Shown: positions 41,932-51,509 of the stretch, piece after piece
Numbering within the stretch: position 1 is the stretch's first letter
Layout of the letters: each line of letters begins with the position of its first letter
NCBI GenBank assembly: GCA_016868475.1
Contig: VGGU01000008.1
Location: 1 to 59,891 of the forward strand
DNA length: 59,891 nt
Reading direction: 5' to 3'
Source: Bacteroidota bacterium
GTDB taxonomy: Bacteria; Bacteroidota; Bacteroidia; Chitinophagales; Chitinophagaceae
The notes under the pieces: generated by a model
What the model was told of the DNA's origin: nothing
The model's input: only the letters and a program-made list of their open reading frames with translations
The model's database searches: none
Made by a program: the position numbers and the translations under genes

Positions 41932-42270
41932 TTATTCAGCTTTTGATTGACTACTGTCTACCAATATTGTTGGGGGTACAATCAACTCCTTCAATCCCAA
42001 AGGCTCAACGGCCCTCATTAACTCACTTTGCTTGCTACTTGCAATCAGTTCGCCCTTTATTGTTTTATACTCATAACTCAACTCCTTCACCGCTCGCTCT
42101 GTTTTATTGATATCTCGGATAGTTTTATTGGCATGATGTCCGTTATAGATATAGCAAACAGCTAAGAAGGATAGAAACAATAAAAATGGAACCTGCTGCA
42201 CAATGGAATGGTAATTCAGCAAGCGTTTCCAGTTTGATTTATTGTTGTCTATTTTTTTTTCTGTTGTCAT
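41932..42270 (-). CDS. ftsL: FtsL-like cell division protein
   Basis: A 112-residue bitopic protein: cytoplasmic tail (about 1-25), one membrane segment (about 26-46) and a short coiled-coil-like periplasmic helix (about 50-85). This is the FtsL layout, and the gene sits at the ftsL position between rsmH and ftsI. Sequence identity to proteobacterial FtsL is not expected; it fits the Bacteroidota FtsL-like family. Confidence 0.85.
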   Translation of the reverse strand: MTTEKKIDNNKSNWKRLLNYHSIVQQVPFLLFLSFLAVCYIYNGHHANKTIRDINKTERAVKELSYEYKTIKGELIASSKQSELMRAVEPLGLKELIVPPTILVDSSQSKAE

Positions 42271-49730: not shown

Positions 49731-51509
49731 ATGGATCGTTTTATAGTTTCTGCCCGTAAGTACAGGCCACAGCTGTTTGATTCGGTTGTGGGACAGGAGC
49801 ATGTTACCACCACATTAAAAAATGCAATTCGAAATCAGCAACTGGCACATGCATTTTTATTTTGCGGACCTCGAGGAGTAGGTAAGACCACCTGTGCACG
49901 TATTATGGCCAAAACCATCAACTGCCAGAATCCCACCAAAGAGGGTGAAGCATGTGATCAATGTAGTAGCTGTGTGTCTTTTAGAGAGGGTGGTTCTATC
50001 AATTATTTTGAACTGGATGCCGCTTCTAATAACTCGGTGGATGATATACGCGCGCTTACCGAACAGGTTAGATTTACGCCGCAAGGAGGTAGATACAAAG
50101 TATATGTGATTGACGAGGTTCACATGCTATCTACGCCTGCTTTTAATGCATTTTTAAAAACATTAGAAGAGCCCCCGCCCTACGCTATTTTTATTCTGGC
50201 CACTACAGAAAAACATAAGATACTTCCTACTATTCTCAGTAGATGTCAAATTTTTGACTTTAAAAGAATAACCACTGCAGATACCGTAGCGCATCTTGAA
50301 GGCATTTGCATAAAAGAAAAAATCAAGGCAGAGAAACCCGCTTTACAGGCTATTGCTCAAAAAAGTGAAGGGTGCATGCGTGATGCCCTTAGTTTACTGG
50401 ATAAAATTGTCAGTTTCACCAATGGATCGGTGGACTACACACAAACAGTTGAGCACTTAAATATTTTGGATGAAGATTATTATTTCCGCTTCATTCATTG
50501 TCTGCAAACGCAGGATCTTGCGCAGGCCCTTTTATTGTACGACCAAATCAATCAAAAAGGATTTGAAGGCGATTTATTTATCAATGGTATGGCAGAGTTT
50601 GCACGAAACTTACTGGTTTGTCAGGATGCAAAAGCCGTAGCTTTATTGGATGTGGTAGAGTCCTTCAAAGACAAATACAAGGAAACGGCAAAAGCCTGTT
50701 CAACCGCTGTGCTGGTTAGCTTGTTGAATATATTGAATGAAGCAGAACTAAATTATAAGGCCGCTCGCAATAAAAGATTGTTTGTAGAGCTGATGCTCAT
50801 TAAAATCTGTTACTTGGAACAGGCCCTGCGCATTACCTCAGGAGATTCAACTCTCTCAAAAAAAAAAGTAGTTGAATCCCCCATCGGATTTAGAGTCAGT
50901 CCCATTCTTCCTTATTCTCCAAAATCTGCTACAAAATCTGTAGCTCCCGCTCCCGTAAATCCAATAAAATCTCCTGCTGTGAGTGCCAAATTGGTGATAG
51001 AAACACCGATTGAGCCAATTCACTCTGCGCCCAATGATAAAAAAGGCCAACCCGGCTCTCCAAAGCTCAGCGCCCTATCCAAAATCAGAGAGCAATTCAA
51101 GCAAACCGGTGGATCTGGATCAGTAGAGGAAAAACAGCTCGAAGAATCATCTTTACAAAAGGCTTGGCAGCTTTACACTCAAGAACTTAAAGATTTAAAA
51201 AATCCGGCTGCTCAACCTTTTGAATCGGCAAGCTTGCGCATTATTGATGCTATCAGTTTTGAAGTAATAACGGCCAATAATATTGAACAGCGGTTTATAG
51301 AACAAGAACGAAATAAACTATACGCATTCTTAAAAGAGAGATTAGCAAATAAAAATCTCCAGTTTAATGTAATTACCGATGAACAAAAAGGGACCCTCAT
51401 TTCCGCTGAGGGAACATTGAGTTCCAAAGAGCGTTATCAGGAGCTGATTAAACAATATCCGCTGATCCAGGAGTTGAAAGAACGATTGAAGCTTGACCTG
51501 GATTACTAA
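49731..51509 (+). CDS. dnaX: DNA polymerase III tau (and probably gamma) subunit
   Basis: The clamp-loader ATPase. The 592-residue tau form has Walker A GPRGVGKTT at 46-54, a zinc site with Cys65, 75, 78 and 81, VIDEVHMLS, and the sensor SRC arginine region. Domains I-III end near residue 370. Codons 376-379 contain a run of ten A (50858-50867); one extra A gives KKKSS-stop and one missing A gives KKK-stop, so a gamma form of about 380 residues is likely. The rest (380-592) is a low-complexity linker and a tau-specific domain. Confidence 0.97.
   Translation: MDRFIVSARKYRPQLFDSVVGQEHVTTTLKNAIRNQQLAHAFLFCGPRGVGKTTCARIMAKTINCQNPTKEGEACDQCSSCVSFREGGSINYFELDAASNNSVDDIRALTEQVRFTPQGGRYKVYVIDEVHMLSTPAFNAFLKTLEEPPPYAIFILATTEKHKILPTILSRCQIFDFKRITTADTVAHLEGICIKEKIKAEKPALQAIAQKSEGCMRDALSLLDKIVSFTNGSVDYTQTVEHLNILDEDYYFRFIHCLQTQDLAQALLLYDQINQKGFEGDLFINGMAEFARNLLVCQDAKAVALLDVVESFKDKYKETAKACSTAVLVSLLNILNEAELNYKAARNKRLFVELMLIKICYLEQALRITSGDSTLSKKKVVESPIGFRVSPILPYSPKSATKSVAPAPVNPIKSPAVSAKLVIETPIEPIHSAPNDKKGQPGSPKLSALSKIREQFKQTGGSGSVEEKQLEESSLQKAWQLYTQELKDLKNPAAQPFESASLRIIDAISFEVITANNIEQRFIEQERNKLYAFLKERLANKNLQFNVITDEQKGTLISAEGTLSSKERYQELIKQYPLIQELKERLKLDLDY
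50858..50867 (+). promoter_or_regulatory. A10 slippage or frameshift site in dnaX
   Basis: Ten consecutive A in frame TCA AAA AAA AAA GTA. Both alternate frames stop within three codons of the tract. AGGAG at 50840-50844, 13 nt upstream, could act as an internal Shine-Dalgarno stimulator as in E. coli. The position is directly after the clamp-loader core, where gamma ends in other bacteria. Confidence 0.7.

Follow-up and report, generated by a model that had tools for sequence, protein, structure and literature searches.

The dnaX gene of Thermus thermophilus is reportedly subject to transcriptional slippage on a run of nine A, as described by Larsen et al. in 2000. Accounts of this gene describe transcriptional slippage at A9 together with stops in the other reading frames (PMC1088944, PMC5009743). 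For Escherichia coli dnaX, a −1 programmed ribosomal frameshift at A_AAA_AAG is described, with an upstream Shine-Dalgarno (SD) sequence and a downstream stem-loop (PMC3711429, PMC5009743), and the question of why E. coli keeps gamma has been described as long controversial (PMC5009743). A further arrangement was reported by Antonov et al. (2013), who described a GeneTack cluster of 17 two-ORF dnaX genes from 12 genera, in which recoding is required for tau; nine of the 17 genes carry 10 A, transcriptional slippage was proposed, and opposite shift directions among genes of the same function were regarded as a mark of transcriptional slippage (PMC3711429).

Here, the dnaX gene found in a 59,891-nucleotide stretch of Bacteroidota DNA (the window) was analysed together with its relatives and compared with these systems.

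Materials and Methods

In the genus of the window organism, dnaX was found in 41 of the 42 genomes searched, one match being partial, and 40 loci, including that of the window, reach the site of interest. In the family, 139 of 147 genomes gave a match, and of the 138 that remain once the window's own genome is set aside, 99 were taken, some of them for short frames or matches. In the order, 117 of 119 genomes matched, 98 of which lie outside the family; the order loci used from outside the family were the 11 best-scoring ones, 30 taken mostly for short or odd frames, and five others. The class gave matches in 146 of 148 genomes, and all 141 from outside the order were taken, 137 of which reach the site. 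In the phylum, 116 of 118 genomes matched, and the set contains only six loci from outside the class.

From the 360 dnaX loci thus collected, 19 duplicate sequences and six loci ending before the site were removed, giving 335 loci for counting; the best 80 named dnaX relatives are not part of this number. The unselected samples are the class draw (137 loci) and the genus (40 loci) only. Many of the genomes are draft or metagenome assemblies, where the run length may be off by one.

Results

The gene for the gamma/tau subunit of DNA polymerase III was located at positions 49731–51509 of the forward strand, on the basis of the open reading frame, NCBIfam and the Pfam clamp-loader domains, with the unshifted frame encoding a tau product of 592 amino acids. 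In NCBIfam, the product matched the gamma/tau family PRK14971 over residues 1–591 (E = 2.7e-206; 687.1 bits at a cut-off of 685) and the dnaX_nterm family TIGR02397 (E = 1.7e-131; 438.7 bits at a cut-off of 250). The best 80 named relatives of the window dnaX are from Bacteroidota, many of them from Chitinophagaceae metagenome assemblies, the nearest being 93% identical, and the window thus probably belongs to Chitinophagaceae.

Domain III (Pfam PF12169), the last domain common to gamma and tau, spans residues 242–364 (50454–50822, forward strand). About 12 codons downstream of its end, the candidate slippage tract, an uninterrupted run of ten A, occupies positions 50858–50867 of the forward strand, where it is read in the tau frame as TCA AAA AAA AAA GTA, with the run starting at the third base of TCA. 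One added A, or a −1 ribosomal shift, leads to a hidden TGA at 50873–50875 (forward strand), so that the predicted product of 381 amino acids would end in SKKKSS, the TGA being two codons further on than KKK; one lost A, or two added, leads at once to a hidden TAG at 50869–50871 (forward strand), with a predicted product of 379 amino acids ending in SKKK. The part specific to tau lies 3′ of the slip site at 50876–51509 (forward strand) and was assigned from the PRK14971 match and from homologous parts in the loci of reversed design described below. The window gene thereby shows two sequence features of a Thermus-type site, namely about nine or more uninterrupted A in the tau frame and near stops in both other frames.

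The original prediction, made from the letters of the window, had placed ten A at exactly 50858–50867, after the clamp-loader core, and had derived KKKSS plus TGA from one inserted A, KKK plus TAG from one deleted A, and product ends at about residues 379–381; sequence and Pfam analysis confirmed the position, and the shifted reading confirmed the products. It had also named the tract as the longest A run noticed in any coding region of the window, and a list of all runs of seven or more bases revealed the A10 to be longer than every other run of any base. Only two other runs of nine bases are present in the window, at 1660–1668 and 42252–42260 (A9 and T9). In the whole genome (1.74 Mb in 107 contigs), ten or more A occur on either strand at four places, and inspection of the open reading frames at these places revealed only dnaX and one other gene as convincing coding regions. 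This other gene, which we take to be metF-like, carries its run at G000:C16:22261-22270 (locus L065, approximately 1501–1510), and the peptide there reads VFKKKTDG.

The tract was found to be widely conserved. It comprises nine or more A in 300 of the 335 loci, eight A in four and fewer in 31. All loci with nine or more A are from Bacteroidia (300/329), the six loci from outside the class having none; of the remaining class loci, four have eight A and 25 have fewer, at least two of the latter being cut by contig ends. Nine or more A were also present in 120 of the 137 loci of the even class draw outside the window's order, in 126 of 149 clusters when one locus was taken per cluster of 80% protein identity, and in 39 of the 40 same-genus loci covering the site. 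Over the rest of these 335 loci, only 16 A9+ and 15 T9+ runs were counted in 1,040,439 bases, so that the occurrence of the tract at this site is beyond chance.

The length of the run is kept irrespective of how it is read. A9+ runs were found in codon phases 0, 1 and 2 in 103, 109 and 88 loci, respectively, and in phase 2, 88 of the 94 runs of six or more A reach a length of nine or longer. In 30 tau-default genes, i.e. genes in which the unshifted frame encodes tau, AAG forms the last codon of the run, and in 29 of them the A of the preceding codon restores a length of nine to ten. The run persists even in loci whose peptide reads EKK or VKK in place of KKK. Among the lysine codons of the first 187 tau-default genes, 6551 are AAA and 2283 are AAG.

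Single loci depart from this pattern. The sole same-genus exception, L069 (genome G024), reads AAA AAG AAA with the hidden −1 stop still in place, and the interruption reflects a natural loss or else a mistake in the assembly. In L114 (genome G118, same family), an in-frame A_AAA_AAG replaces the long run and the −1 stop is kept; this locus may have moved towards an E. coli-like site. L110 (genome G170) has an A9, and its reading frame is apparently broken upstream in a draft contig, leaving it unclassified. L107 (A8) and similar single cases are possible assembly errors. In 26 loci without the tract, a search for substitute poly-T or other runs revealed none longer than eight within 700 bases, apart from an A10 downstream in L192. 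The loci with short runs, including L069, suggest that gamma is dispensable or otherwise made in some lineages.

The hidden stops were analysed in the 236 tau-default loci, where the expectation was obtained by resampling synonymous codons for the same peptide. In the frame reached by one added A, which is equivalent to a −1 ribosomal shift, a stop occurs within five codons in 230 of the 236 genes, at an expectation of 46.5% (z = 18.7) and a rate of 32.5% at other gene positions. In the frame reached by one lost A, a stop within ten codons is present in 218 of the 236 (expected 63.0%, z = 11.2; elsewhere 46.9%) and within five codons in 140 of the 236 (expected 46.0%). The amino acids kept at the site account for some of the effect and lift the synonymous expectation above the background. 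Restricting the count to cluster representatives gave 86 of 88 for the added-A stop within five codons and 80 of 88 for the lost-A stop within ten. Short open stretches are maintained in both shifted frames, more strictly in the added-A frame. The check on relatives put forward with the original prediction, namely that tract and hidden stops be kept, was thus borne out in the same genus for the tract and across the tau-default loci for the stops, both shifted frames lying above the synonymous expectation.

In 67 of the 335 loci, the design is reversed: the unshifted frame meets its stop no more than 11 codons after the tract, another frame is open, and tau would require a shift (gamma-default). 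The shift needed is one added A in 59 loci and one lost A in eight. Homology to the tau C-terminal part was found in 62 of the 67, in all 62 in the predicted shifted frame, and five gave no match. Four of these five belong to genus g190 (L232, L233, L236 and L438), where an A9 lies further downstream than usual, only the added-A frame is open and a tau C-terminal part could not be recognised; since this match is absent, the g190 loci were counted as reversed with an unsure class. In the loci requiring one added A, the third frame is also short, with stops within 13 codons in 57 of 59.

Reversed genes make up 39 of the 137 loci drawn from the class, at least 19 of the 98 from the order beyond the family, four of the 100 examined from the family beyond the genus, and none of the 40 from the genus. 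Thirteen genera with several loci contain a reversed gene; seven are uniform (two to six species each) and six are mixed with tau-default genes. Draft-assembly errors as a general cause of the reversed design were discarded given the seven uniform genera. On a FastTree tree of dnaX, parsimony gave 35 design changes, a count that tree error can inflate, compared with a mean of 60.9 and a minimum of 53 for shuffled labels; this implies that the design is partly inherited and often reversed. In the mixed genus g104, L283, L285 and L444 have A11 and are tau-default, and L284 has A12 and is gamma-default, with similar flanks and a difference of one A. The mixed genera g188, g125 and g140 have A10 runs of the same length, and the frame is set by the flanking sequence.

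Potential stimulatory signals of ribosomal frameshifting were sought around the tract. AGGAG is present at 50840–50844 (forward strand) and ends 13 nt before the tract, as originally pointed out, and the same word is found upstream of the tract in the near relatives L004, L006 and L007; a generally conserved element, however, was not revealed, with SD words of four or more bases in 13 of 128 cluster representatives versus 8.5% at control positions. For SD-like 5-mers, an excess was seen upstream (14 of 304 loci, 4.6%, versus 1.2% in the control). Ribosomes of Bacteroidia sequester the anti-SD and are reported not to recognise SD sequences (PMC9976891), and with the 4-mers unenriched, AGGAG was set aside as a stimulator.

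The window also has a 9-bp inverted repeat at 50844–50878 (forward strand; arms 50844–50852 and 50870–50878) with the A tract in the loop and a fold z of −2.27. The stem spanning the tract has only 5 bp in the nearest relative, L004, and a stem of at least 9 bp spans the tract in three of 251 loci at an expectation of about 0.8, so that this hairpin was rejected as a functional element. Both AGGAG and the 9-bp stem are probably incidental features of the window. Downstream of the tract, 55-nt windows of 128 representatives were not above other gene windows in structure (mean z −0.08), and no stem-loop was apparent by this measure; windows upstream of the tract are slightly more structured (mean z −0.44). 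An in-frame A_AAA_AAG is missing from the window tract, where TCA AAA AAA AAA GTA offers A_AAA_AAA only.

Discussion

The tract is most likely a programmed RNA-polymerase slippage site that splits the output of dnaX into tau and a short gamma. In the proposed mechanism, RNA polymerase would slip on the A run and release transcripts whose A count lies above or below that of the gene. Tau would come from transcripts that keep the templated number of A or gain a multiple of three; those one A longer or shorter would soon meet a stop in the shifted frame and give a gamma of 379–381 amino acids, which would end right after clamp-loader domain III and join the clamp loader. That slippage takes place in the window organism, that RNA polymerase and not the ribosome is chiefly responsible and that gamma enters the clamp loader is what we infer from the conserved architecture of the site. 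The original reading of the tract as a putative gamma-making slippage site is supported; as to the two parallels it had drawn, the Thermus-type transcriptional model fits the site better and the E. coli-type ribosomal model less well.

Gamma could also result from −1 ribosomal frameshifting on the A_AAA_AAA within the tract, in an E. coli-like manner and perhaps aided by AGGAG. Such a model would also predict the stronger keeping of the added-A stop, which lies in the −1 frame, and the heptamer is in frame in every A9+ run, so that ribosomes may contribute; the AGGAG shared with L004, L006 and L007, the excess of 5-mer SD words (14/304 versus 1.2%) and the E. coli-like A_AAA_AAG with its kept −1 stop in L114, where the long run is gone, point the same way. 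As the main mechanism, however, ribosomal frameshifting appears unlikely, because nine or more A are kept in all phases although an A_AAA_AAR heptamer needs only six to eight in phases 1 and 2, because eight reversed loci require one A less, an outcome beyond the reach of a −1 ribosomal shift, and because the third frame is kept short in the reversed loci requiring one A more (57/59). An excess of downstream structure (mean z −0.08) and of 4-mer SD words (13/128 versus 8.5%) is also missing, and ribosomes of Bacteroidia are reported to be blind to SD sequences (PMC9976891). The similar run length in all phases, together with both shift directions and the lack of a general SD element or hairpin, favours slippage of RNA polymerase.

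If the tract were a phase-variation site at the DNA level, replication slippage would toggle the gene between tau-default and gamma-default; the design changes on the dnaX tree (at least 35, versus a shuffled mean of 60.9 and minimum of 53), the mixed state of six of 13 multi-locus genera and the single-A difference within g104 are in line with this. Yet seven of the 13 genera are uniform, and g188, g125 and g140 share an A10 of identical length with the frame set by the flanks, which argues against switching by tract length. Tau is presumably essential, and a pure off state would not be expected to last without slippage to supply both products; we therefore regard phase variation as very unlikely. 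Even more improbable, to the point of being hardly tenable, is a plain lysine-rich linker in an A-rich gene with hidden stops that arose by chance. Lysine codons are indeed mostly AAA (6551 versus 2283 AAG) and the run can be interrupted, as in L069 and L114, but a linker of this kind does not account for A9+ at the site in 300 of 335 loci against 16 in 1,040,439 bases elsewhere, for a run that persists with an EKK or VKK peptide, or for hidden stops over the synonymous expectation (z = 18.7).

Slippage of RNA polymerase at this site may extend beyond the window organism. On balance, we favour a class-wide setting, in which polymerase slippage on a single A9–A12 run, kept in most Bacteroidia, would determine the gamma:tau ratio of the clamp loader. 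Slippage would be the only route to tau in at least 19 of 98 genomes (order outside the family) to 39 of 137 genomes (class outside the order), and the design would have switched repeatedly because roughly balanced slippage would make both designs workable. If this is true, an RNA-polymerase error governs the make-up of the replication machinery in a large bacterial class, and many of its members depend on this error for tau. The loci would then offer many natural variants for asking why gamma is kept: shifts in either direction, runs in every codon phase, sister species that differ by one A, and losses. Annotation pipelines may label the reversed dnaX genes as broken.

Comparison with Known Systems

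A class-wide slippage of dnaX in Bacteroidota was not found in the literature searched, and the species of Antonov et al. (2013) may include some Bacteroidota. The two-ORF dnaX genes described there correspond to the reversed design of 67 of the 335 loci, from which the window gene differs in being tau-default (PMC3711429). With E. coli dnaX as described, the window shares the gene and the predicted outcome, a gamma from within the tau frame; it differs in that a heptamer with stimulators serves in E. coli, whereas a long homopolymer without generally conserved stimulators is present here. The closest likeness is to Thermus thermophilus as described, in which tau is likewise encoded in one open frame with an A9–A10 run and stops in both other frames, gamma being the slipped product. 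The difference is that slippage and both products have been measured in Thermus, in another phylum, while the present case is drawn from comparative sequence analysis. With both designs already in print, for Thermus and by Antonov et al. (2013), the window gene belongs to the Thermus kind.
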